From positions 434,001 to 498,000 of the forward strand of contig NZ_CP108088.1 of the NCBI RefSeq assembly GCF_036192275.1: a stretch of 64,000 nucleotides of DNA, in the 5' to 3' direction. Within the stretch, counting starts at the first letter, position 1, and each line of letters starts with the position of its first letter. The stretch is from Streptomyces sp. NBC_00250. GTDB lineage: Bacteria; Actinomycetota; Actinomycetes; Streptomycetales; Streptomycetaceae. This document shows, piece after piece, positions 38,218 through 57,934 of this stretch. Both the position numbers and the translations under genes were made by a program. The notes under the pieces were generated by a model. It was not told the DNA's origin and ran no database searches. It saw only the letters and a list, made by a program, of their open reading frames with translations.

Positions 38218-40893
38218 ATGGCCGGATTCCTCGGCCGCCTGCGCTCCGCGTTGAGCGTCCGCACCGTCGCCCGCCAGGTCTTCTCCCTACAGGCGGCGAT
38301 CGTGGTGCTCCTCGTCGTGGCCGCCGTGGTTGCTCTCGTACTGCAGTCCCGGGCGGACAGCGAGCGGGAAGCGCGCAACCGGTCCCTCGCCGTGGCCGAG
38401 ACCTTCGCCAACGCCCCGGGACTCGAGGAGGCCCTGGCCGGTCCCGACCCGACCGCAGTGCTCCAGCCACGCGCCGAGGAAGCGCGAAAGGCGTCCGGCG
38501 TCGACTTTCTCGTGGCGATGACCACGGACGGGATCCGCATCACCCACCCCGATCCGGCACAGATCGGAAAGCGCTACATCGGCACGATCGGCCCTGCTGC
38601 GGCAGGCGGGATCGTCAGGGAGACCGTGACCGGCACCCTCGGCCCGTCCACCCGCGCCGTGGTCCCCGTGACCGACGCCGAGGGCGACGTCATCGCTCTG
38701 GTTTCCGCCGGGGTCACGCTCGAAGCCGTGAGCGGAGTCGTCGATCATCAGCTGCCCCTGCTGCTCGGTGCCGCGGCGGCGGCGCTGGCAGTCGCCACCT
38801 TCGGTACCGCTCTGGTCGGCAGGCGACTGCGCCGCCAGACCCGCGGCCTGGGTCCCGCCGAGATGACCCGCATGTACGAGCATCACGACGCGGTGCTGCA
38901 CGCCGTGCGCGAGGGCGTTCTGATCCTCGACGGCGACGGTCGGCTGGAGCTGGCCAACGACGAGGCCCGCAGGCTGCTCGGTCTGAGCCCGGACGCGGAG
39001 GGCCTGCTCGCCCGTGAGCTGGGCCTCGCCCCGGACATAGCCCGGCTGTTGGCTTCCGGGCGCGCGGCCACCGACGAGGTGCACCTGGCCGGGGACCGGC
39101 TGCTGGCCGTCAACCAGCGGCCGACCGACCCCGGAGGCGGGCCGTCCGGCTGTGTCGCGACGCTGCGGGACACCACCGAGCTGCAGACGGTCACCGGCAG
39201 GGCCGATGTGGCGCAGGAGCGCCTGAAACTGCTGTTCGACGCCGGATTGGAGATCGGCACCAGCCTCGACGTAGAGCGGACCTCCCAGGAGCTGGCGGAC
39301 TTCGCCGTCCCCCGGTTCGCCGACTTCGTCACCGTCGACCTGGCCGACCCCGTCCTGCGGGGCGAGGAGCCGTCGGGGGGTGCAGCGATGCGCCGTGTCG
39401 CGTTCCGGGGTATCCGGGACGACACACCGCTGTACCCGCCCGGCAAACTGATCCATTTCGTCCCGTCCACCCCGCAGAGCCTCGGTTACGGCTCGGGCGA
39501 GACGGTCCTGGAGGCGGACATGACCGCCTTCTCCGGGTGGCAGGCTCAAGACCCCGAACGGGCCCGGAGACTTGTCGAGGCCGGCATCCATTCGATGATC
39601 GCGGCTCCGTTGCGCGCTCGCGGAGTCATCCTGGGTGTCGTCACGTTCTGGCGGTCGCGCAAGCCCGAGCCTTTCGAGCACGACGACGTGACACTCGCCG
39701 AGCAACTGGGCGCCCGAGCGGCGGTCACCATCGACAACGCCCGCCGCTTCACGCGCGAGCACACCCTGGCGGTCGCCCTGCAGCGCAGCCTGCTCCCCCG
39801 CGCCCTGCCGGAGCAGAACGCGCTCGACGTGGCCCACCGCTACCTGCCCGCGCATGCGGGCAGCGGCGGTGTCGGCGGGGACTGGTTCGACGTCATCCCG
39901 CTACCCGGCGCCCGCGTCGCCCTCGTCGTGGGGGACGTGGTCGGCCACGGCCTGCACGCCGCCGCCACCATGGGCCGGCTGCGCACCGCGGTCCACAACT
40001 TCTCCTCCCTGGACCTGGCGCCCGACGAACTCCTGTGGCGCCTCGACGAACTGGTCACTCGGATCGACCAGGACGAGAGCGGCGGGGGCGGCGGCGCTCC
40101 GGTCACGGGCGCCACCTGCCTGTACGCGCTCTACGACCCGGGCACCCAGCTGTGCACGATGGCCCGCGCCGGCCACCTCGAGCCCGTCATCGTGCGCCCC
40201 GACGGCAGCGCGGCGTTCGCCGCCGTACCGGGCGGCCCGCCCCTCGGGCTCTCTGGACTCCCGTTCGAGACCGCCGAGATCCAGCTCCCCGAGGGCAGCG
40301 GCCTCGTGCTCTACACCGACGGTCTCGTGGAGGACCGCACCCGCGACATCGACGAAGGGCTGGAACTGCTGCGGCGCACCCTGGCTCACCCCGGCCGCAC
40401 GCCTGAGCAGACCTGCAGCGCGGTTCTGGACGCAATGCTGCCCGAGCAGCCCTCGGACGACATCGCGCTGGTGGTCGCCCGCACGCGTGCGCTCGGCAGC
40501 GCCCGTACAGCCACCTGGGACGTCGCGTCCGATCCGTCGGCCGTCGGCCAGGTTCGAGCCGCCGTCGCCCGCACGATGGCCGAGTGGGGTCTGGAGGAGG
40601 AGTCGTTCACCACCGAGCTGATCCTCAGCGAGCTTGTCACCAACGCCATCCGTTACGCCGCCGAGCCCGTCCGCGTACGTCTGATCCGCGATCGCGCCCT
40701 GATCTGCGAGGTCTCGGACGGCAGCAGCACCGCTCCGCACCTGCGGCGCGCGGCGACCACCGACGAGGGCGGACGGGGCCTGTTCCTGGTGGCCCAGTTC
40801 GCCGACCGCTGGGGCACCCGCTACACCGCGGACGGCAAGGTCATCTGGACCGAACAGCCACTTCTCACCGGTACGTCGGACAACGACCGGTGA
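38218..40893 (+). CDS. Membrane-bound sensor PP2C phosphatase with anti-sigma kinase domain (Cache-PAS-GAF-SpoIIE-HATPase)
   Basis: An 891-residue protein. Two membrane helices (about 22-44 and 178-200) flank a DcuS/CitA-like extracellular sensor (DFLVAMTTDGIRITHPDPAQ, IGKRYIGTIGPAA). Then come PAS (about 225-330), GAF (about 345-510) and a SpoIIE/PP2C phosphatase whose metal-site Asp residues are all present: GGDWFD near 554, GDVVGHG, YTDGLVE near 700, SDDIAL near 746. A C-terminal histidine-kinase-like ATPase of the RsbW type (ELVTNAIRYA, GRGLFLVAQF) follows. It combines dephosphorylation of anti-anti-sigma factors with anti-sigma activity in one protein. Extracellular ligand may be a small acid. 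Three such proteins occur in the window. Confidence 0.93.
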   Translation: MAGFLGRLRSALSVRTVARQVFSLQAAIVVLLVVAAVVALVLQSRADSEREARNRSLAVAETFANAPGLEEALAGPDPTAVLQPRAEEARKASGVDFLVAMTTDGIRITHPDPAQIGKRYIGTIGPAAAGGIVRETVTGTLGPSTRAVVPVTDAEGDVIALVSAGVTLEAVSGVVDHQLPLLLGAAAAALAVATFGTALVGRRLRRQTRGLGPAEMTRMYEHHDAVLHAVREGVLILDGDGRLELANDEARRLLGLSPDAEGLLARELGLAPDIARLLASGRAATDEVHLAGDRLLAVNQRPTDPGGGPSGCVATLRDTTELQTVTGRADVAQERLKLLFDAGLEIGTSLDVERTSQELADFAVPRFADFVTVDLADPVLRGEEPSGGAAMRRVAFRGIRDDTPLYPPGKLIHFVPSTPQSLGYGSGETVLEADMTAFSGWQAQDPERARRLVEAGIHSMIAAPLRARGVILGVVTFWRSRKPEPFEHDDVTLAEQLGARAAVTIDNARRFTREHTLAVALQRSLLPRALPEQNALDVAHRYLPAHAGSGGVGGDWFDVIPLPGARVALVVGDVVGHGLHAAATMGRLRTAVHNFSSLDLAPDELLWRLDELVTRIDQDESGGGGGAPVTGATCLYALYDPGTQLCTMARAGHLEPVIVRPDGSAAFAAVPGGPPLGLSGLPFETAEIQLPEGSGLVLYTDGLVEDRTRDIDEGLELLRRTLAHPGRTPEQTCSAVLDAMLPEQPSDDIALVVARTRALGSARTATWDVASDPSAVGQVRAAVARTMAEWGLEEESFTTELILSELVTNAIRYAAEPVRVRLIRDRALICEVSDGSSTAPHLRRAATTDEGGRGLFLVAQFADRWGTRYTADGKVIWTEQPLLTGTSDNDR

Positions 40894-40940
40894 TGACCGG
40901 TGATGACCGGTGATGACCGGTGATGACCGGTGATGACCGG
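40891..40940 (+). repeat. Tandem repeat, 5 x 10 bp
   Basis: Five perfect copies of TGATGACCGG start at the stop codon of the sensor phosphatase (the TGA is the first triplet of copy 1); a degenerate copy (40881-40890) forms its last codons. With a 10-bp period the repeat presents TGA stops in all three frames. Confidence 0.9.
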
Positions 40941-41029
40941 TGGCGCCTACGGCCACCGGCCGCTCCGGCTCCCCACGTCCGCCTGCACGGGCACCCATGT
41001 CGCCCTCGATCTTGATCGTCTTCATGGTG

Positions 41030-41400
41030 ACTTGGGACCGGACCGCGCGAGTCTGGGACGCTGTTACCGGGCAGTACCGCAGAATGCCGGCGGGCAAGCC
41101 GGAGCGGTGCAGTCGGTGGCTCTCCGCCGGGACGGCCGCACGCTCGCCACCGCCAGCTGGGACGGCACAGCGTGGCTGTGGGACGCCCTGACGGGCAAGG
41201 CGCGCCTTTCGTTGGCGGGGCACTCCGACGTGGTGTATTCGGTGGCGTTCAGCCCCGATGGCCGCTGCCTCCCCACGGGCAGCGTCGACCGCACGGGCGC
41301 GGCTGTGGGACGTCCGCCTGGCCCCGGCCGACGAGGCCATCAAGAAGATCTGCCGCGCGGTCTGCCGCAGGTGGCCGGTCCGAGCCGCCCGGACTGATTG
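41030..41400 (+). pseudogene. WD40-repeat protein remnant
   Basis: Three collinear blades in three frames: DRTARVWDAVTGQYR (from about 41037), LATASWDGTAWLWDALTGKA and VVYSVAFSPDGR (41120-41270), then RLWDVRLAPADEAIKKICRA (41295-41360). The last block is the standard C terminus of Streptomyces HTH/NACHT-WD40 proteins. Two frameshifts and the absence of the N-terminal effector part make it non-functional. Confidence 0.7.
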
Positions 41401-41528
41401 TCGGCGAACTCACTCCTTCCGGTACCGGCGACCGCCGCACCGTCACGGCACTCCCCCAGCACCGTTACGTAGAAGCACTCATGGAGCCAGGCCCGGGACC
41501 GACGGGCCGCACGAGACAGGTGACGGAC

Positions 41529-42062
41529 ATGCGCACTGAGGCCGCCAAGCGGGTCGAGCTGGTCTTCTCCCTCTTCGACGCCAACGGCAACGGAGTCATC
41601 GACTCCGGTGACTTCGACCTCATGACGGAACGCGTTCTGGAGGCGGCTGTCGCATCGGAAGACGGCGCCAAGGAGGCCATCCGGACCGCGTTCCGCCGCT
41701 GGTGGACGACGCTGGCCACCGAACTGGACGTCAACGGGGACGGCGTGATCACCGTCGACGAGTTCCGCCCCTTCGTGCTCGACCCCAAGCGTTTCGGCCC
41801 CACGATCACCGCGTTCGCGGAGGCTCTCTCCGCACTCGGCGACCCGGATGGGGACGGCCTGATCGAGCGTCCGCTCTTCCTGTCGCTGATGACGGCGATC
41901 GGCTTCGAGAAGGCGAACATCCACGCGCTCTTCGACGCCTTCGGCCCGGACGCCGAGGACCGCATCACCGTGGCCACGTGGGCCGCCGGCATCGAGGACT
42001 ACTACGCACCGGAGCTGGCCGGGATTCCCGGCGACCGGCTGGTGGGCGCCCCGGCCGTCTGA
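41529..42062 (+). CDS. EF-hand calcium-binding protein (calerythrin-like)
   Basis: A 177-residue soluble protein from ATG 41529 (ATG 41481 is an in-frame alternative). Four EF-hands in two pairs: DANGNGVIDSGDF, DVNGDGVITVDEF and DPDGDGLIERPLF each keep the 1-3-5-12 ligands or nearly so, while the fourth (GPDAEDRITVATW) has lost position 1 and would not bind. The spacing and the length match calerythrin/CabB-type Streptomyces proteins, which buffer or sense Ca2+ during aerial growth. The helices between (AIRTAFRRWWTTLATELD) are amphipathic. It stands alone. Confidence 0.92.
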   Translation: MRTEAAKRVELVFSLFDANGNGVIDSGDFDLMTERVLEAAVASEDGAKEAIRTAFRRWWTTLATELDVNGDGVITVDEFRPFVLDPKRFGPTITAFAEALSALGDPDGDGLIERPLFLSLMTAIGFEKANIHALFDAFGPDAEDRITVATWAAGIEDYYAPELAGIPGDRLVGAPAV

Positions 42063-42080
42063 CACGGCCCGGTCGCGAGC

Positions 42081-42110
42081 GTCCCGGGGCGGCGTCGGCC
42101 GCACCGGGAC
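42081..42110. terminator. Bidirectional terminator
   Basis: A 7-bp stem, one mismatch, then a 5-bp stem with a GTCG loop (42081-42093 with 42098-42110) lies between the convergent EF-hand and methyltransferase genes. Confidence 0.75.
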
Positions 42111-42129
42111 ACCGTCGGCCCGAAGGACG

Positions 42130-43089
42130 TCACGGTCCGGGCTTGTGGGCGAAGACCCACCGGTTCCCCTCCAGGGCGTCGTTCGGCTCGGGGAGGGGGC
42201 CGCGTCCGTGCCGGCGGGTGAAGTCGAAGGGCGTGCGCATCGACGTGGACCAGCCCTTGGCCGTCAGGTGAGCCGCCGAGTCGGGGCGCGGTCCCAGGTC
42301 GAAGAGGTCGAGCAGGTCGATGCCGATCTGTTCCCGCGTCGCCGTGTAGATCGCGCTGCCGCGGTACGCCAGCAGGTCCTTCTCCAGCTTGGCCTCGAAG
42401 GCCAGGGCGCTGCCCCCGGTGGTCAGCCGGTCCACCGTGTCGATGAGGTACGTCTCGGCGGGGCCCGGCAGGTAGAAGAGCAGCCCCTCGGCCAGCCAGA
42501 CGCTCGGTGCGGCCGGGTCGAAGCCGGTGGAGGTCAGCGCGGTGGCCCAGTCCGCACGCAGGTCGACCGGTACGGGGACGCGCTTCACCCTCGGGGCTGC
42601 CGACAGGTCCGTGAGCACCTGGTGCTTGAAGGCCAGCACACCCGCCCTGTCGATCTCGAAGACCACGCAGTCGGACGGAAGGTCCAGCCGGAAGGCACGC
42701 GTGTCAAGACCCGCGCCCAGCAGGACCACTTGACGGGCACCGTCGAGGACCGACCCGAGGACGAAGTCGTCGAGGACCCGGGTCCGCAGCCCGAAGTAGC
42801 GGGCGAACCTGCCCCACAGCGGGTTGTCGTCCCCCTCCGGGACCTGCCCGATGCGTACCGGCCAGTCCACGCACGCCGGGGCCGCGCGTACGAAGTGTTC
42901 GGCGTGGACGTCCTGGGCCAGGCTGTCGTGGCGGTGGGTCTCGATCGCCCGGGCCGCGGCGACCAGGAGGGCGGTCAGCCCCACCCCTCCGTCCACGCCC
43001 TCCGCGTCGGCCTGCCGAGTCGACGTGGCGGCCGAGTCTCCTCCGGTGGCGGAGGGGGAGGGCTCCTTGGTGGTGAAGGTTTCGCTCAT
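42130..43089 (-). CDS. SAM-dependent O-methyltransferase (leucine-carboxyl-methyltransferase type)
   Basis: A 319-residue protein from ATG 43089, which overlaps the stop of the upstream dehydrogenase as ATGA. It belongs to the TIGR00027-type actinobacterial methyltransferases: LTALLVAAARAIETHRHDSL at the N terminus, ARYFGLRTRVLDDFVL, the SAM motif VVLLGAGLDTRAFRLDLP, then VWLAEGLLFYLPGPAETYLI. Members methylate carboxyl or hydroxyl groups of small molecules. It is the last gene of a four-gene coupled set led by an MfnB-like furan synthase, so it may methylate a furan acid or alcohol. An N-terminal Ser/Thr-rich tail of about 30 residues is unusual but not inhibitory. Confidence 0.87.
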   Translation of the reverse strand: MSETFTTKEPSPSATGGDSAATSTRQADAEGVDGGVGLTALLVAAARAIETHRHDSLAQDVHAEHFVRAAPACVDWPVRIGQVPEGDDNPLWGRFARYFGLRTRVLDDFVLGSVLDGARQVVLLGAGLDTRAFRLDLPSDCVVFEIDRAGVLAFKHQVLTDLSAAPRVKRVPVPVDLRADWATALTSTGFDPAAPSVWLAEGLLFYLPGPAETYLIDTVDRLTTGGSALAFEAKLEKDLLAYRGSAIYTATREQIGIDLLDLFDLGPRPDSAAHLTAKGWSTSMRTPFDFTRRHGRGPLPEPNDALEGNRWVFAHKPGP

Positions 43090-44198
43090 CGTTCTCTTCT
43101 TTCCGGCAGCAGGACGGGTTTGACCACGCGGCCGGCGTCGCAGTCGCGTTCGGCCTCGTTGATGTCGGCCAGCGGGTAGGTGCGGATCAGCTGGTCGAAG
43201 GGGAAGCGGCCGGCCTGCCACAGGCCGGTCAGCCGGGGTATCAGCAGTCCGGGTACCGCGTCGCCTTCGCAGATGTGGCGGATGCCGCGGCCTCGGTCGA
43301 GCGTGCCGGGTTCGAGCGGTAGCGGGGTGTGGAGGCGTGCCACGAGCCCGAGGGTGCCGGTGGGGCGCAGTGCCTGGAGCGCGTCGTTGATGAGCGGGGC
43401 CGAGGCCGTGGTGTCCAGGGCGTACTGGGCTCCGCCGTCGGTCAGTCGGCGGATCCGGTCGGGCAGTCCGTGCGATCCGGCGAACAGCGGGGTCGCACCG
43501 AACCGTTCGGCCAGGTCCAGCCGCTCGGGATGCCGGTCGACGGCCACGGTCCGCATGCCGGCGGCGGTGGCCGCCATCACGGCGGCCAGGCCCACCGCCC
43601 CCGCGCCGAGGACCGCGAGGGTGTCGCCTGGGCCTGCGGCGAAGGTGTTCAGTACGGCTCCGGCACCGGTGAGGAAGCCGCAGCCGAGCGGCCCGAGCAG
43701 TTCGAGCGGCAGGGAGGGGTCGACCCGGACGGCGTTGCGGGCCGGGACGAGCGCGTACGCGGCGAAGGAGGACTGGCCGAACCACCGGGGAGCCAGCGCC
43801 TTTCCGGCCGCGTCGGTGAGGCGCGGTGGTTCCTCCTCGCGCCCGCCGAAGAGGTTGAGGGAGGCGAAGGAGTCACAGTAGGCGGGGGCGGCGGCGCGGC
43901 AGCTCCGGCAGTGTCCGCAGGAGTCGAAGCTCAGCACGACGTGGTCGCCGACGCCGAGCGCGATGCCGGGGCCGCCGCCCGTCGCCACCACGACCCCGGC
44001 GCCCTCGTGGCCGAGAACCGCAGGCAGCGGGCTGCGGCCGGCCGATCGCCGTACTGCGAGGTCGGTGCGGCACATCCCGGCTCCCGCGATCTCGACCAGG
44101 ATCTCGCCGGGGCCGGGCGCCGTGCTCAGGGCCACTTCCTCTACCGTGAACGGGTCCTCGTACGAGCGCAGTACGGCCGCCTGGAACCTCCTCGTCAA
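43086..44198 (-). CDS. Zinc-dependent alcohol dehydrogenase (MDR superfamily)
   Basis: A 370-residue protein from TTG 44198, which overlaps the aldehyde dehydrogenase stop as TTGA with GGAGGAGG just upstream. Catalytic zinc site: GMCRTDLAVRR and GHEGAGVV. Structural zinc loop with all four Cys: DSCGHCRSCRAAAPAYC. Rossmann fold TLAVLGAGAVGLAAVMAATA. It is of the aryl/benzyl-alcohol-dehydrogenase type, with a C-terminal LIRTYPLADINEAERDCDAG as in those enzymes. In this setting it could oxidise a hydroxymethylfuran to the aldehyde, feeding the adjacent aldehyde dehydrogenase. Confidence 0.88.
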   Translation of the reverse strand: MTRRFQAAVLRSYEDPFTVEEVALSTAPGPGEILVEIAGAGMCRTDLAVRRSAGRSPLPAVLGHEGAGVVVATGGGPGIALGVGDHVVLSFDSCGHCRSCRAAAPAYCDSFASLNLFGGREEEPPRLTDAAGKALAPRWFGQSSFAAYALVPARNAVRVDPSLPLELLGPLGCGFLTGAGAVLNTFAAGPGDTLAVLGAGAVGLAAVMAATAAGMRTVAVDRHPERLDLAERFGATPLFAGSHGLPDRIRRLTDGGAQYALDTTASAPLINDALQALRPTGTLGLVARLHTPLPLEPGTLDRGRGIRHICEGDAVPGLLIPRLTGLWQAGRFPFDQLIRTYPLADINEAERDCDAGRVVKPVLLPERRER

Positions 44199-45604
44199 GC
44201 TTCCTCCTCCCGCGGGCGGTGCACGACGAACGGCCGGAGGTTGCCGTAGAGGCCCCACGGTCCGCCCGCGACACCGACGCCGCTGTCCTTGACGCCCGCG
44301 AAGGGCTGGGCGAGGGAGAGCTCGGCGTGGTGGTTGATCCACGCCGTGCCGCATTCGAGCCGGTCGGCCACTGCCTCGGCCCGGTCGAGATCGGTGCCCC
44401 AGACGGAGCCGCCCAGTCCGAAGCCGGTGCCGTTGGCCGCGTGGACGGCCTCGTCGAGGTTCCGGTACGGCAGTACGGGCAGGACCGGTCCGAACTGTTC
44501 CTCGGTCACCACCGGGCTGTCGGGCGGGACGTCGGTGAGGATCGTGGGAGCGAAGAAGTAGCCCGCTCCGTCGAGTCGGTGGCCGCCGGCCACGGCCCGG
44601 GCGCCGGCCGCCAGGGCCTGCCGCGTGACCTCTTCGACCCGGGCCAGCTGGCGAGCGTTGTTGACCGGACCGATCCGGGTGTCCGGGTCGAGTCCGGATC
44701 CGATCACGACCGCCTTCGCGCGCTGGGCCAGGGCTTCGACGACCTCGGTGTGGAGCCGGGCGGGGGCGTAGACGCGTTTGACCGCCATGCAGACCTGCCC
44801 GCAGTTGCGGAACGCGGCCCAGAACAGCCGGTCCGCGATCCGTTCCACGTCGACGTCGTCCAGGAGGACGGCGGCGTCGTTGCCGCCCAGTTCCAGGGTG
44901 ACGCGGGCGAGCGAGCCCGACGCGGCCTCGGCGACGGCCCGACCGGTGGGCACCGAGCCGGTGAAGGTGACGTGACGGATGCCGGGGTGGGCGGCGAGAC
45001 GGGCACCGAGGGGTTCGCGGCCGGTGACGACGGTCAGGACGTCCTCGGGCAGGACGGTCGCGAGGACAGAGCCGAGGAGCCGAGTGGCGAGCGGGGTGTG
45101 AGGGGACGGTTTGAGGACCACGGTGTTGCCGGCCGCGAGCGCGGGCGCGAACTTCGCCGCCGCGAGCTGGAGCGGGAAGTTCCACGGCACGATCGCGGCG
45201 ACGGGCCCGACGGGCCGCCAGCGGACCTCGCTGTGCACGGGTCGACCGTCGTCGATCCGGCGGGACCTGGGAGCCAGGTCGGCGAAATAACGCAGCCGGG
45301 CCGCAGTACGGGCGATTTCGGCGTACGACTCGGGCAGGGGCTTGCCCTGTTCCCGCGTGAGCAGCCTGGCGAGGTCCTCGCCGGCTGTTTCCACGGCGTC
45401 GGCGGCGACGCGCAGGGCGGTGGTGCGGGCGGCGGTGTCGGCGCGCCAGCCGTACCAGGCCCGCTGGGCCCGGGCGACCACCTCGTCCAACTCCTCCGGC
45501 CGCTGGTCGGGGGCCTCGTCGAAGGCCTCCCCGGTGGCCGGGTCGAGGACGGCGAGGCGTGTGGCACGACGCCCGGGGACGCGACCGGCTTCTGGTGTCG
45601 GCAT
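44195..45604 (-). CDS. NAD(P)-dependent aldehyde dehydrogenase
   Basis: A 469-residue protein from ATG 45604. NAD-binding strand WNFPLQLAAAKFAPALAAGN, the Glu region ARVTLELGGNDAAVLLDDVD, catalytic Cys272 in GQVCMAVKR, and EEQFGPVLPVLPYRNLDEAV near the C terminus. The Lys in VVLKPSPHTP is kept. It oxidises aldehydes to acids. It lies 8 bp downstream of the MfnB-like gene and overlaps the alcohol dehydrogenase gene. Furan aldehydes are a reasonable substrate from context, not from sequence alone. Confidence 0.9.
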   Translation of the reverse strand: MPTPEAGRVPGRRATRLAVLDPATGEAFDEAPDQRPEELDEVVARAQRAWYGWRADTAARTTALRVAADAVETAGEDLARLLTREQGKPLPESYAEIARTAARLRYFADLAPRSRRIDDGRPVHSEVRWRPVGPVAAIVPWNFPLQLAAAKFAPALAAGNTVVLKPSPHTPLATRLLGSVLATVLPEDVLTVVTGREPLGARLAAHPGIRHVTFTGSVPTGRAVAEAASGSLARVTLELGGNDAAVLLDDVDVERIADRLFWAAFRNCGQVCMAVKRVYAPARLHTEVVEALAQRAKAVVIGSGLDPDTRIGPVNNARQLARVEEVTRQALAAGARAVAGGHRLDGAGYFFAPTILTDVPPDSPVVTEEQFGPVLPVLPYRNLDEAVHAANGTGFGLGGSVWGTDLDRAEAVADRLECGTAWINHHAELSLAQPFAGVKDSGVGVAGGPWGLYGNLRPFVVHRPREEEA

Positions 45605-45612
45605 CCCGGTGG

Positions 45613-46368
45613 TCAGTTCACGGCCGAGGTGCCGACGGCGTGCTCTCGGGCCTGCCGGTCCATCTCCGCCCGGAAGGCGGCGACCAGATGCGGCTGGATC
45701 CTCCCGGCATTGCGGTCACCGCCCGAGCAGACCGCTCCCCGTACGCCCACGATGTCCGTGCCGATGCGGGTCAGCGGACCGAGGTCCGCCTGCTTGACGC
45801 TGCCCGCGAGGGCGGCGAGCAGACCTGACGCGTGGGCGCGCCGGACGAACTCGGCGCAGGCGTCGGGCGGGACGTGGTCGAAGAGCCGCGTGCCGTCCTT
45901 GATCGCGGTGTCCAGCATGGCCGCGTCGGCACCGGCGCGGGCGGCGATGTCGGGCAGGGAGAGCGGGTTGACGCAGCCGATGCGGTGGGCGTCGGCGTAG
46001 CCCGAGGCGACGACGAGCGCTTCGGGGCGGTGGTCCTTCACCGCGCGGACGACCGCCCGCATGACCTCGACGCCCTGCTCGGGTGTCGTGCAGCCGTACA
46101 GGCCGACCTTGATGTACGTGGCGCCGGAGACGACCGCGCCGAGCGCGGCCTGCGCCACCGTGCCGGGCTTGTACGGCACGTCCCCGACGGTGGCGGACAC
46201 CGGCTTGTCCGCCGGCACCGCGTCGCGGATCTCCCGGATGACCCAAGGGAAGTTGGCGCCCAGCGAGCCCTCGTCGGGCTTCTTGACATCGACGATGTCG
46301 AGGTGTTCCGCGGCCTTCGCACAGTCGAGGGCTTCCTCGACACCGTCCGGGGAAATGAGAAGCAACAC
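45613..46368 (-). CDS. mfnB: (5-formylfuran-3-yl)methyl phosphate synthase (MfnB-like)
   Basis: A 251-residue protein from ATG 46368. It matches MfnB, the methanofuran-pathway enzyme that joins two glyceraldehyde-3-phosphates into a phosphorylated hydroxymethyl furaldehyde. Catalytic positions known in the archaeal enzyme (Asp25, Lys27, Lys85, Asp151, Lys155) all appear here shifted by two: Asp27 and Lys29 ([19 protein letters not shown]), Lys87 ([10 protein letters not shown]), Asp153 and Lys157 (MLDTAIKDG). So the fold and the chemistry should be intact. Streptomyces does not make methanofuran, so the furan must serve another product. It is first in a coupled set with two dehydrogenases and a methyltransferase. 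Confidence 0.85.
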
Positions 46369-46497
46369 CGTGAGCTCCTTCCGCCCGCATGTCCACCTGG
46401 CCGAGGACAGGGGTGCGGATCACCTGGTTCATGTGCGTGCGATCATCCTTTCCGTCGCCCCGTGGGCACCGGTAGGGCGCGCGGAGCTCCCCGGAGG

Positions 46498-46522
46498 CGC
46501 GTGACGGCACGCGCGTCACGCG
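46498..46522. promoter_or_regulatory. Operator-like inverted repeat upstream of mfnB
   Basis: CGCGTGAC-N9-GTCACGCG is a perfect 8-bp inverted repeat 129 bases before the MfnB-like start. Two copies of GTGCACCGG (46525-46533 and 46536-46544) follow. Location fits a regulator site for the furan operon. The rest of 46369-46745 shows no gene. Confidence 0.5.
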
Positions 46523-46745
46523 ATGTGCACCGGGCGTGCACCGGCGGCCGCCGAACCCTGCCAACCGCCCCCGATGCGCACTTGTGCACTCCGGCGCCGC
46601 TGTCTGCCTCCTGCCGGTCACCAGGCACGAATGACCCCTCAGGTCGCACGCTCGCGAGCGCGCTCGCCAGGCACCCGGAGTCGGGCGTGTTCGCGGTTGA
46701 ACTGCCGCTAGCGATCAGGCTGTCCGCGGCGGCGGTAGTAGGGGG

Positions 46746-46897
46746 TCGATCGAACTGTCCGAGCAGCGCACGAGCCGGCTCGTCCCCGGCGCCACCTACG
46801 AGGAATTCGCGACGGCGGGCCCCGGACTGTTCATCACCCACGGGGACGAACTGAACGGCGACCTCCTGTCGTTCATCGAGGGCGAGCGCCGAGGCCC
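46746..46897 (+). pseudogene. Alpha/beta-hydrolase C-terminal remnant
   Basis: The plus strand reads SRLVPGATYEEFATAGPGLF then ITHGDELNGDLLSFIEGE, matching the last strand and helices of alpha/beta hydrolases (P-H-G-L-F-x-T-H), but the catalytic His position reads Pro-Gly. Upstream strands are missing and it runs into the opposite ArsR gene. Confidence 0.55.
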
Positions 46898-47875
46898 TCA
46901 CGCCCGGTCGAGCAGCGCGACACCGAGCTCGCTGGCGGTGTAGTGGACCTCACGCCGGTAGCGGTGGCTGGTCACCAGCCCGGCGTCGCGCAGCACGGCG
47001 AGGTGCTGCGAGACGGCGCCCAGGCTCAGCCCGGTCAGCTGGGCCAGTCCGGTCGTGGTGGAGGGTGAGCTCGTGTGGGCGAGCAGTCGCGACCGGCTGC
47101 GGCCGAGGAGGCGGGCCAGTCCGTCCTCGGCCGTGTCGCGCCGTTCCCACACGGTGGCGACCGCTCGCGACGGATAGACGACACACGGGATGGTCCCCGG
47201 TCGCCCGGCGAGCAGATGGCAGCGGGCCGCGAACACGCTCGGTGCCAGGGTGATGCCGCCGCCGTCCAGGTCGAGTCCCCTGGCGGGCAGGTCCGCCGAC
47301 ACGAGGCAGTCGCCGGACCAGCGCAGTGACGGATGGAGGTGCGCGAACACCTCCCGGATGCCGTCCTCGCCGAGCTGCCGGGTACGGTGCGCGAGGTCGG
47401 CCTCCAGTACCGAACGGATCCTCGGCCAGTACGGCTTCAGGCTCGCCTGCCACCAGGCGAGTACCGCATCGGCCAGTTCGGGCAGCACCCGCTCCGGGTC
47501 GTCGGCCAGCCTCCGTTCGAAGACGGAGAGCCGGGTGTGCCGGGCGACCGTCTCCAGCCCCGCGCGCACCCGCTCGGCCGGCAGCGTCGCCAGGACGGCG
47601 AGTTCCTCCTCGATCTCGGCCAGCGGGCAGCGCGGAGACGGAGTCAGGAAGTCGCGCACCACGCCGTCCCGGGGTGCCAGCGCGGCGAGCGCCGCCGCGT
47701 GTCCGGCGAGCGCGGGGTTCTTCTGCAGGGCCAACGCCTTTTTGATCCAGGGAAGATGGATGGCGTGGCGCCCGGGATCGGCCGTCGCCCGGAGACTGGC
47801 GACGGTTTCCCACAGCGGGGATATCGCGAACCTGAGGTTCGCCATGTCGTCGACCCCGAACCGCACCCTGCCCAT
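46898..47875 (-). CDS. ArsR-family regulator with N-terminal DUF5937-like domain
   Basis: A 325-residue protein from ATG 47875. The N-terminal 240 residues begin VRFGVDDMANLRFAISPLWE and match the long non-DNA-binding domain of actinobacterial ArsR proteins (WQASLKPYWPRIRSVLEADL, FAHLHPSLRWSGD). The winged HTH is C-terminal: LAQLTGLSLGAVSQHLAVL, then RDAGLVTSHRYRREVHYTAS. No metal-binding Cys pattern is seen, so it probably senses a small organic molecule. It is divergent from an MFS transporter gene by 88 bp and most likely represses it. Confidence 0.87.
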   Translation of the reverse strand: MGRVRFGVDDMANLRFAISPLWETVASLRATADPGRHAIHLPWIKKALALQKNPALAGHAAALAALAPRDGVVRDFLTPSPRCPLAEIEEELAVLATLPAERVRAGLETVARHTRLSVFERRLADDPERVLPELADAVLAWWQASLKPYWPRIRSVLEADLAHRTRQLGEDGIREVFAHLHPSLRWSGDCLVSADLPARGLDLDGGGITLAPSVFAARCHLLAGRPGTIPCVVYPSRAVATVWERRDTAEDGLARLLGRSRSRLLAHTSSPSTTTGLAQLTGLSLGAVSQHLAVLRDAGLVTSHRYRREVHYTASELGVALLDRA

Positions 47876-47963
47876 ACCGCTGCCCCCGGCCCTCATCACG
47901 GCGATGTTTTCGCCCAGACTAAAACAATGGCTACGTCTCCCCGGGGGTGGTGGTGTTCAAGCC

Positions 47964-49268
47964 ATGACGATCTCTCCCACCACCCCTGCCGGCGGCACCG
48001 GCGAACAGAGCGACGAGGGCGGCCCCGAAGCCGCCGCCGCCCGTCCCGGACTCCTGCGGATCGCGGACTTCCGCCGTCTGTGGATCGGCGACACCGTGAG
48101 CCAGGCGGGCACGGCCGTCACCCTGCTCGCGCTCCCGCTCGTGGCGATCGGCACGCTCGGCGCCTCGCCCTTCGAGGCGGGCCTGCTCGTCGCATGTGAG
48201 TACCTGGGGTTCCTGCTCCTCGGTCTGCCCGCAGGCGCCTGGGTGGATCGGATGCGCCGTCTCCGCGTCATGATCACGGGCGATCTCGGTCGTGCCGTCC
48301 TGCTCGCCTCCGTGCCCGCCGCGGCTCTGCTGGACGTCCTGACGCTTCCTCAGCTGTACGTCGTGGCCTTCGGGGTGTCCGTCTGTACGGCGTTCTTCGA
48401 CATCGCCTACCAGAGCCATCTCCCCCAACTGGTCGACGAGGACCGCTTGGTGGAGGCCAACGTCGCTCTGGAGGCGACTCGCACCATCACCGCGGCCGGC
48501 GGCCCCGGAGCCGGCGGCGCGCTGGTCGGTGCGCTGACCGCGCCCGTGGCGATCGTCGTCGACGCCGTCAGCTTCGTCGTCTCCGCCGCATTCCTGGCAC
48601 GTATCCGCGGTGGCCGTGCCGATGCCGCACCCGAGTCCCGCCCCGGAGTCCGTCTGAGAGGTGAGATCGCCGAAGGGCTGCGCTTCGTCTTCGGCCACCC
48701 GCTGCTGCGCGCACTCACCCTCACCTCCGCGATCTCCAATCTGTGCGGAACGATCGGCGCTTCCATGCTGCTGGTGCTGCTCGCGGGCGAGTTGGGCCTG
48801 TCACCGTTCCTGTGTGGCCTGGTGTTCACGGCAGAGGCCCTCGGCGGCTTCCTCGGAAGTCTGCTCACCCTGCGGATCGCCGGACGGTTCGGTCAGGAGC
48901 GGGCGATGGCCGCGTCCGTGATCACCAGTGGTCTGCTGTGGCTGCTGGCTCTCCCCTTCTTCCAGGCCGACTGGCGCTTCGCGGTCGCCGTCGCCCTCCA
49001 GGGTCTGGGCTGGACGGCTTTCATGACCTTCAAGGTCACTTCGGTCGCCCTGCGCCAACGGCTCTGCCCGCCACCGCTTCTCGGACGCATGACAGCGACG
49101 TTTCGCTTCGTGGTGTGGGGGTCCATGCCCGTGGGCGCACTCCTCGGAGGTCTCCTGGGACAGCACTTGGGCGCGCGCTCGGCTCTGTGGGCCGGGGCCC
49201 TGGGTGAACTCCTCGCCGTACTTCCCCTGCTTCTCTCGCTCCGCGGCCCACGCGAGCATGCGGAGTGA
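47964..49268 (+). CDS. MFS transporter (drug-efflux type)
   Basis: A 434-residue membrane protein from ATG 47964. The family start is RIADFRRLWIGDTVSQAGTA, with loop-2 motif GAWVDRMRRLRVMI and 12 predicted helices. It is close to the MFS_3-type (enterobactin/macrolide exporter-like) group with VALEATRTITAAGGPGAGGA. Control by the divergent ArsR is likely. The cargo cannot be told from the sequence; the nearby furan cassette is one possible source. Confidence 0.88.
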   Translation: MTISPTTPAGGTGEQSDEGGPEAAAARPGLLRIADFRRLWIGDTVSQAGTAVTLLALPLVAIGTLGASPFEAGLLVACEYLGFLLLGLPAGAWVDRMRRLRVMITGDLGRAVLLASVPAAALLDVLTLPQLYVVAFGVSVCTAFFDIAYQSHLPQLVDEDRLVEANVALEATRTITAAGGPGAGGALVGALTAPVAIVVDAVSFVVSAAFLARIRGGRADAAPESRPGVRLRGEIAEGLRFVFGHPLLRALTLTSAISNLCGTIGASMLLVLLAGELGLSPFLCGLVFTAEALGGFLGSLLTLRIAGRFGQERAMAASVITSGLLWLLALPFFQADWRFAVAVALQGLGWTAFMTFKVTSVALRQRLCPPPLLGRMTATFRFVVWGSMPVGALLGGLLGQHLGARSALWAGALGELLAVLPLLLSLRGPREHAE

Positions 49269-56689: not shown

Positions 56690-57934
56690 GTGAGGCCGGA
56701 GATCGACCACGGTGCGTTGTTCGCCGCGACGCCCAGCCCGTATCTGGTGCTGGCACCGGACCTGGTGATCGTGGATGTCAACGACGCGTACCTGCGGGCG
56801 ACCGGTCGCACCCGGGAGGATCTGCTCGGGCAGCACGTGTTCGAAGCGTTCCCCGACAATCCCGGCGACCCTGGCGCGGACGGGGTGAAGAACCTCGGGG
56901 CGTCGCTGGGGCGGGTGCTGGCCACCGGTGAGGCCGACACCATGGCGGTGCAGAAGTACGACATCCCCGTCGTCTCGCAGCCCGGTGTGTTCGAGGAACG
57001 CTGGTGGTCCCCGGTGAACACCCCGGTCAAGAACGCGGACGGGCGGGTCACGTGGATCATCCACCGCGTGGAGGACGTGACGGCGTTCATGCTGTCCCGC
57101 CGGTTCCGGGGCCGGAACGAGGGGCGGCGGATGACCGAGCGCGAGGAGGGGATGGAGGCCGAGCTGTACGCCCGCGCGCGGGAGCTGCAGCGGCTGAACG
57201 AGGAGCTGCGGGCGGCGCACGCCCGGGAGCGGGAGATCGCCGTCACCTTGCAGGAGGCGATGCTGCACTCCCCGGACCTGGCCCGGCACAGTGACGTGGC
57301 GGTGCGCTATCTACCGGCGATCGGTTCGCTGAACGTGTGCGGCGACTGGTACGACGCCGTCGACCTGGACGAGGGGCGGTTCACCGTCGCCGTGGGCGAC
57401 GTCGTGGGGCACGGGCTGGAGGCGGCCACCGTCATGGGCATGCTCCGCAGCGCGCTGTCCGCGGCCAGTCGGGCGGTGGCCGGGCCGGCCGGGGCCCTGG
57501 AGGTGCTGGGCATGTACGCCCGCTCCGTGGACGGCGCGCTCGCCGCGACCGCGGTCAGCGTGCTCGTGGACACCCGCTCCAAACTGCTCGTCTACTCCAG
57601 CGCGGGGCACCCGCCGCCGGTGCTGCTGCACACGGACGGCACGTGCGAGCTGTTGGACCAGGCCACCGACCCGCCGCTGGGAGCCAGACCCGAGCACGTT
57701 CCCCGGCCGCAGGCCGGTACCGCCTACCGCCCGGGTGACACCCTCGTCCTCTACACCGACGGACTGATCGAACGCCGTGACGAGGACATCGACACCGGCC
57801 TGGACCGGCTGACCACCGCCCTGGGCGACCTCACCGGCCTTGAACCGGCTCAGCTGGCCGACGCGCTGCTCGCGCGACTCGGCGTCGCCAGCGGAGCCCG
57901 CGACGACATCGCCCTCGTCATCGTCCGCGTCTGA
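56690..57934 (+). CDS. PAS-SpoIIE PP2C phosphatase
   Basis: A 414-residue cytoplasmic protein from GTG 56690 (GAAGG upstream). A PAS domain (about 8-125: PSPYLVLAPDLVIVDVNDAY) leads by a coiled stretch (LYARARELQRLNEELRAAHA) into a PP2C domain with all metal-site Asp residues: CGDWYD near 217, GDVVGHG, YTDGLIE near 356, RDDIALV near 404. There is no kinase domain. It should dephosphorylate an anti-anti-sigma factor in response to a PAS-sensed signal. The divergent neighbour has a dead phosphatase domain but an intact kinase, so the two may form an opposed pair on one partner. Confidence 0.93.
   Translation: MRPEIDHGALFAATPSPYLVLAPDLVIVDVNDAYLRATGRTREDLLGQHVFEAFPDNPGDPGADGVKNLGASLGRVLATGEADTMAVQKYDIPVVSQPGVFEERWWSPVNTPVKNADGRVTWIIHRVEDVTAFMLSRRFRGRNEGRRMTEREEGMEAELYARARELQRLNEELRAAHAREREIAVTLQEAMLHSPDLARHSDVAVRYLPAIGSLNVCGDWYDAVDLDEGRFTVAVGDVVGHGLEAATVMGMLRSALSAASRAVAGPAGALEVLGMYARSVDGALAATAVSVLVDTRSKLLVYSSAGHPPPVLLHTDGTCELLDQATDPPLGARPEHVPRPQAGTAYRPGDTLVLYTDGLIERRDEDIDTGLDRLTTALGDLTGLEPAQLADALLARLGVASGARDDIALVIVRV

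Follow-up and report, generated by a model that had tools for sequence, protein, structure and literature searches.

A mobile furan synthase cassette in Streptomyces, its possible furan ester product and an EF-hand partner

The stretch of DNA analysed here (64,000 nucleotides of Streptomyces sp. NBC_00250, positions 434,001-498,000 of the forward strand of contig NZ_CP108088.1, assembly GCF_036192275.1; ‘the window’) carries a compact cassette of four genes headed by mfnB, which encodes a furan synthase of the kind found in methanogens. All four lie on the minus strand, in the order (i) mfnB, for a predicted 4-(hydroxymethyl)-2-furancarboxaldehyde phosphate (4-HFC-P) synthase (45613-46368), (ii) an NAD(P)-dependent aldehyde dehydrogenase of 469 amino acids (44195-45604), (iii) a medium-chain zinc alcohol dehydrogenase of the benzyl/aryl-alcohol type, with 370 amino acids (43086-44198), and (iv) an S-adenosylmethionine-dependent methyltransferase of the LCM/TIGR00027 family, with 319 amino acids (42130-43089). 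An 8-bp gap separates mfnB from the aldehyde dehydrogenase gene, and both later junctions are 4-bp overlaps. Convergent with this operon, on the plus strand (41529-42062), is a gene for an EF-hand calcium-binding protein of 177 amino acids, and mfnB is preceded by a conserved leader with a probable promoter (46369-46508, minus strand). The first-pass annotation of this DNA had placed the four genes correctly, in position and strand; it overlooked the EF-hand gene, the conserved leader, the carriage of the cassette on plasmids and the lineages in which the aldehyde dehydrogenase is shortened or missing.

That the window MfnB is a methanogen-type furan synthase is well established by sequence comparison. 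It matches PF04476 (269 bits), exceeds the curated equivalog cut-off of NCBIfam NF002573 (396.3 bits vs 341), and has a single PDB relative by sequence (E <= 0.001), the Methanocaldococcus enzyme MJ1099 of M. jannaschii (4rc1, 4u9p; 278 bits, 61% identity). Its residues D27, K29, K87, D153 and K157 align with D25, K27, K85, D151 and K155 of MJ1099; Asp25, Lys85 and Asp151 are taken here to be catalytic alongside Lys27 and Lys155. Relatives of mfnB were collected by pattern, one genome per species, giving 203; all locus counts below rest on the best 80 of these, and residue conservation is counted over rows whose best alignment covers at least 85% of the length. The five residues are invariant in 81 of 81 sequences (the window plus the 80 loci), so that the earlier description of an intact MfnB with its catalytic residues in place holds. 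One report describes two lysines and two aspartates as essential, Lys27 forming a Schiff base (PMC6604932), and another names Lys155 as catalytic (PMC11365854).

In a tree of 25 MfnB sequences, ten are cassette-type (nine named, one metagenomic), eleven come from methanogens and four from Proteobacteria. The cassette-type and methanogen proteins together are split from the proteobacterial ones by a fully supported branch (100/100); the division between cassette-type and methanogen proteins is less firm (89/62 and 87/79). The window MfnB shares 29-37% identity with the proteobacterial, methylofuran-type enzymes, a range that, like the tree, excludes the A_lipoferum row, which is in the wrong frame. 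The simple reading would be a transfer of mfnB, presumably from a relative of the methanogens.

Among the partner enzymes, the aldehyde dehydrogenase (Pfam Aldedh, 467 bits) has another aldehyde dehydrogenase, 8yen, as its best PDB match (406 bits), and its C272, E238 and N142 are kept in 75 of 75 full-length rows (the window and 74 of the 80 loci). For the alcohol dehydrogenase, all 80 such rows (the window and 79 loci) retain the catalytic and structural zinc ligands. Its PDB ranking is led by 5tnx (301 bits); the benzyl alcohol dehydrogenase 1f8f, second overall at 253 bits, is the best relative with a named function, and the third match falls to 151 bits. The known role of 1f8f is in the degradation of aromatics, unlike the setting here. 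The methyltransferase scores above the cut-offs of PF04072 (173 bits) and TIGR00027 (243 bits); its predicted structure is mediocre (mean pLDDT, a per-residue confidence score, of 68) and was not used. From its family and its neighbours it would be a carboxyl O-methyltransferase.

The set is conserved as a unit. Matches to the alcohol dehydrogenase and the methyltransferase stand beside mfnB at all 80 loci, and the aldehyde dehydrogenase has a match at 79, full-length at 74. The methyltransferase is inverted at five of the 80, so the linkage is not due to operon structure alone. Median ratios of nonsynonymous to synonymous substitution (dN/dS) relative to the window are 0.12-0.33 across the five cassette genes, lowest for mfnB (0.12, strong purifying selection), which excludes chance as the cause of the cassette. 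Four genes that flank it in the window are not conserved neighbours: for two, none of the 80 loci gives a match, and for the other two there are scattered paralogue matches only (29-58% identity), at seven loci.

Within the genus (Streptomyces, judged by the nearest relatives of the window), full-length mfnB occurs in 53 of 199 sampled genomes, about a quarter, and an orthologue of the methyltransferase (at least 69% identity) occurs in exactly the same 53. The two genes are no more than 8 kb apart on one contig in 50 of these genomes and on separate contigs in three. Counting any match raises the number for mfnB to 55; the two additions (G108:C1:3281665-3282114 and G080:C1:143867-144313) are half-length PF04476 matches of 31-35 bits inside long open frames, perhaps distant relatives and not mfnB. 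The single other sampled genome of the window's species lacks mfnB. In a class-wide sample (394 genomes, 137 genera) mfnB scored only in the window's genus, in six genomes including the window's own; relatives are also found in Kitasatospora, Actinacidiphila, Embleya and Yinghuangia, so the cassette extends further within the family. Matches to mfnB occur in 33 plasmid records, 13 of them from Streptomyces or Streptantibioticus at 85-93% identity, and the four-gene set is present on all three plasmids examined, joined on two by an EF-hand gene. The differing flanks and the plasmid carriage indicate that the cassette moves as a unit. Joint conservation of the four genes had been named beforehand as a point on which the first-pass proposal could fail, and it is what the 80 loci and 199 genomes display. 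The cassette is confirmed as real, and it is conserved and horizontally mobile.

About 130 bp ahead of mfnB are alike among the loci, and the sequence further upstream differs. This block was aligned for all 81 sequences and for 79, the latter without two loci (L013, L037) whose leaders hold repeat insertions. The alignments reveal a conserved leader box, CGCGCGCCCTACCGG (46469-46483, minus strand), a GATGA element downstream of it and a ribosome-binding site, GAAGGAG, all within 46369-46508. A composite motif of the box and a GATGA-type element, drawn from these alignments, lies upstream of mfnB at 49 of the 80 loci; its exact form is missing from the counted span at the other 31. Across 2.53 Mb (both strands of the loci) it occurs once more, again upstream of mfnB. 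A shared regulon was considered and rejected: the composite motif is absent from 36 loci of methyltransferase and EF-hand paralogues, and the box is not clearly enriched in the window genome, where it is found with at most one mismatch at 119 places vs 98 for a reversed-pattern control (three are exact, one of them the cassette). A riboswitch or other RNA element was likewise rejected. RNAalifold gives only -1.92 kcal/mol for the 79 leaders, the 63 nt ahead of the ribosome-binding site are no stabler than mononucleotide shuffles (81 sequences, mean z -0.2), and Rfam returns for window positions 40000-48500 a single sub-threshold snoRNA match, outside the leader. Since no fold is supported, the conserved block is read as a probable dedicated promoter and leader of mfnB, as predicted from the alignments.

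The EF-hand gene surfaced through clustering of the flanking open reading frames (ORFs). The clustering is rough, having picked up mfnB itself at only 56 of the loci, so a rarer cassette partner may be overlooked. The protein has Pfam EF-hand domains and calerythrin and calexcitin among its PDB relatives; it resembles calerythrin and other EF-hand proteins in length and EF-hand loops, and in the window genome matches only itself (E <= 1e-5). Loops 1 and 2 keep Asp/Asn at positions 1, 3 and 5 and Asp/Glu at position 12 in 42 of 42 rows, bar a single His at residue 69; in loop 3 the last position is not acidic in 39 of the 42. Of the 80 loci, 44 have a relative of this gene (48-95% identity) no more than 9 kb from mfnB, in four arrangements: downstream and convergent (36 loci, two of them with the inverted methyltransferase), upstream and divergent (five), downstream on the same strand (two) and upstream on the same strand (one).

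Unlike calerythrin, the cassette-type EF-hand gene has a methyltransferase gene as a repeated neighbour, in clusters of several kinds. The genus search gave 54 places with methyltransferase orthologues and 18 with more distant methyltransferases, 16 of which were examined (two at 49% identity were left out). In the stretches covered, mfnB and the two dehydrogenase genes of the cassette are absent from all 16, two of them (L091, L100) lying in genomes that carry mfnB elsewhere; an EF-hand gene (58-67% identity) is near the methyltransferase at 12. The two genes adjoin at five (L087, L089, L091, L098, L099); at six (L090, L092-L096) an isocitrate-dehydrogenase-like (Iso_dh-like) and an isochorismatase-like gene stand between them, and at L101 an isochorismatase-like gene alone, these labels resting on Pfam assignments of two proteins of each kind. 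The other four (L088, L097, L100, L102) have no EF-hand gene nearby. The six-locus arrangement is perhaps a different pathway to the methyl ester of a small acid.

Of the 57 EF-hand places in the genus sample, 33 have a methyltransferase relative within 10 kb vs about 0.15 expected randomly (kinship uncorrected); genomes with mfnB account for 22 of these 33. The EF-hand gene is present in 41 of the 53 mfnB genomes vs 14 of the 146 others, a difference that kinship may explain in part. The excess over expectation and the pairing in clusters without mfnB tie the protein to the methyltransferase, and it is most likely an accessory of the pathway, linked to the methylation step. Two counts pull the other way: 36 of the 80 cassettes have no EF-hand gene nearby (two of these with too little downstream sequence to judge), and 24 of the 57 places have no methyltransferase relative inside 10 kb, so that a constant linkage of the two genes was rejected. 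One of the 24 (in G119) is 1.2 kb from mfnB, the methyltransferase being on another contig; at the 20 of these 24 places that were examined, no cassette gene stands beside the EF-hand gene. A bolder and rather unlikely extension is that EF-hand protein and LCM methyltransferase form a calcium-responsive methylation module, which would have been joined at least twice to acid-making sets (the furan synthase of methanogen lineage, and the isocitrate-dehydrogenase-like and isochorismatase-like pair) and would release small methyl-ester signals whose output follows calcium. EF-hand relatives unlinked to the cassette (L112, L113, L115, L118, L119, L120, L128) often have another set of neighbours in common: genes for a substrate-binding lipoprotein, an AraC-like regulator and a thioesterase-like protein, as labelled by reading the sequence.

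The cassette as a whole is, by a slight preference, read as a self-contained mobile unit that makes a small C6 furan, best taken as the methyl ester of a 2,4-substituted furan acid; the later steps and the use of the product are inferred. By strong homology, MfnB would condense two molecules of glyceraldehyde-3-phosphate to (5-formylfuran-3-yl)methyl phosphate, a 2,4-substituted furan. A housekeeping phosphatase may then remove the phosphate, after which the benzyl-alcohol-type dehydrogenase, expected to work on the hydroxymethyl or formyl group of the furan, would convert the 4-hydroxymethyl group to an aldehyde, and the aldehyde dehydrogenase would take formyl groups, that of the 2-carboxaldehyde among them, to carboxylates. 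Lastly, the LCM-family methyltransferase would esterify one or both carboxylates, giving a neutral and possibly volatile ester. The operon would run from its own conserved upstream region, with the EF-hand protein as accessory. The prime candidate product is dimethyl furan-2,4-dicarboxylate, with methyl 4-(hydroxymethyl)- or 4-formyl-furan-2-carboxylate as alternatives. From the first-pass list of possible furan products, the acid or methyl ester stands as the most natural, given an LCM-type methyltransferase and dehydrogenases of the aryl-alcohol and aldehyde types.

A possible product of this structure has been reported. A gas chromatography-mass spectrometry (GC-MS) study of a methanol extract of Streptomyces malaysiensis 8ZJF-21 (genome JAJQWY000000000), a member of the S. 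violaceusniger group, lists a library match to dimethyl 2,4-furandicarboxylate (PMC9131080). Its substituents occupy the positions that MfnB sets, so double oxidation and two methylations of the dephosphorylated MfnB product would yield it. As evidence for a product of the cassette this is a lead, not a demonstration.

Several points weigh against the ester reading. The reported diester was identified by NIST library match only, in an extract made and dissolved with methanol from a complex medium, and the same table holds 5-hydroxymethylfurfural and fatty-acid methyl esters (PMC9131080); it is possibly a compound of the medium, an ester formed in work-up or another isomer. S. violaceusniger NBRC 13459 (L060), from the same species group, has mfnB together with a truncated aldehyde dehydrogenase and an alcohol dehydrogenase split between frames. 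Besides the cassette and EF-hand genes, no ORF family is common to more than ten of the 80 loci, hence no conserved phosphatase is seen, as the first-pass annotation had noted for the window. The PDB relatives of the methyltransferase, Rv0731c and ML2640, are annotated only as putative methyltransferases, and the carboxyl methyltransferases of the LCM family, LCMT1 and TcmP, enter the argument as general background. A further objection concerns the aldehyde dehydrogenase, which is shortened at five of the 80 loci (L012, L015, L060, L067, L078; the matched pieces share one frame) and has no match at L050. With this gene shortened or missing at six loci, aldehyde oxidation is not obligatory: the acid may be formed by an enzyme encoded elsewhere, or this step may be dispensable.

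All six loci retain matches to mfnB, the alcohol dehydrogenase and the methyltransferase. This looks like repeated loss of a single step, and it also counts in favour of a reductive branch with a furan alcohol or its methyl ether as product. In such a branch the furfural would be reduced by the alcohol dehydrogenase and a hydroxyl group methylated by the methyltransferase, leaving the aldehyde dehydrogenase only to clear surplus aldehyde. Such a branch is unlikely, given that the methyltransferase belongs to the LCM family, whose characterised members, such as LCMT1 and TcmP, methylate carboxylates, that its relatives neighbour Iso_dh-like and isochorismatase-like genes, that 74 of the 80 loci keep the aldehyde dehydrogenase at full length and with its catalytic residues intact, and that the sole reported matching compound is a diester.

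Two further alternatives would deny the cassette a biosynthetic furan altogether, and both are improbable. MfnB might have kept its fold and residues and turned to another aldol product, no assay of a Streptomyces homologue having been found in the literature; the closeness to MJ1099, the five catalytic residues and the score above the equivalog cut-off speak against this, as does the retention of the same residues in the proteobacterial methylofuran-type enzymes, which are far more distant from the window's. Alternatively, the cassette might detoxify or degrade furan aldehydes from the environment, aldehyde and aryl-alcohol dehydrogenases being the usual pair for oxidising furfural-type aldehydes. 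Against this, the operon is headed by a furan synthase gene whose median dN/dS is lower than that of the other four genes, and no other ORF family, hence no conserved ring-cleavage or uptake gene, is common to more than ten of the 80 loci.

The last comparison is with C1 metabolism, since MfnB is known from the biosynthesis of C1 coenzymes. The window enzyme is by sequence the furan-forming enzyme of methanogen methanofuran biosynthesis and shares its catalytic Asp and Lys residues. Unlike in methanogens, it precedes an aldehyde dehydrogenase, an aryl-alcohol-type dehydrogenase and a methyltransferase, in a genome without a match to PF01913 (formylmethanofuran formyltransferase) or TIGR03123, both of which were detected in two methanogen controls. 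Proteobacteria (Azospirillum, Thiodictyon, Phyllobacterium) likewise have a PF04476 synthase, in methylofuran/dihydromethanopterin clusters, but it belongs to the separate clade and its neighbours in three annotated records (two more carried no annotation) are, in varying combination, DUF447, DUF6513 and dihydroneopterin aldolase, with fhc in Azospirillum and fae in Phyllobacterium; a Burkholderia paper lists the synthase in a gene set with a subunit of formylmethanofuran dehydrogenase, a methylofuran context. It is very improbable that the Streptomyces cassette is left over from a methanofuran-like cofactor route of C1 metabolism, even though MfnB acts early in methanofuran synthesis and the three proteobacterial homologues sit amid genes of such pathways, because the genome has neither PF01913 nor TIGR03123 (formylmethanofuran dehydrogenase and other pathway genes were not searched for) and the cassette enzymes suit oxidation and methylation, not amination. 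The earlier proposal of a furan synthase working outside methanofuran metabolism is to this extent borne out; the two absences say nothing of the actual product.

Other features of the window lie outside this set. Upstream, an ArsR-like regulator with DUF5937 (46898-47899, minus strand), not conserved as a cassette neighbour at related loci, stands beside a major facilitator superfamily exporter on the plus strand (region 46898-49268), listed from 47190 and probably starting near 48000. On the other side, a short WD40-repeat ORF (40930-41397, plus strand) has no match in the 80 related loci and is apparently a piece of some larger WD40 gene. The window also holds two SpoIIE-type phosphatase genes on the plus strand, at 38218-40893 (with sCache, PAS, GAF and histidine-kinase-like ATPase domains) and 56690-57934.

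No study of the Streptomyces cassette was found in the literature searched, most subscription journals being outside the search. A relative named as Streptomyces coelicolor (P0029, 88% identity) is presumably SCO6440. A study of the AbrB1/B2 two-component system lists S. coelicolor mfnB, SCO6440, as up-regulated in the mutant (PMC7581861). The methylenomycin furans of S. coelicolor (made with MmfL, MmfH and MmfP) are also small furan carboxylic acids from Streptomyces; PMC6604932 describes them as inducing an antibiotic, and notes that reports of furan-forming enzymes are few. The cassette combines known furan-forming chemistry with a non-coenzyme setting and an unexpected EF-hand partner, in a pathway that is apparently undescribed.

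A methanogen-type MfnB in a mobile set that points to a non-coenzyme product, widespread in the genus, makes this a small-molecule pathway that can be tested in model strains. If the product is a furan-2,4-dicarboxylate, the odd GC-MS report from S. malaysiensis would be explained, and central metabolism would offer a biological source of a monomer that is studied for furan polyesters (PMC13107169). The EF-hand link, if true, would give a calcium-binding protein of bacteria a place at a defined step of biosynthesis.

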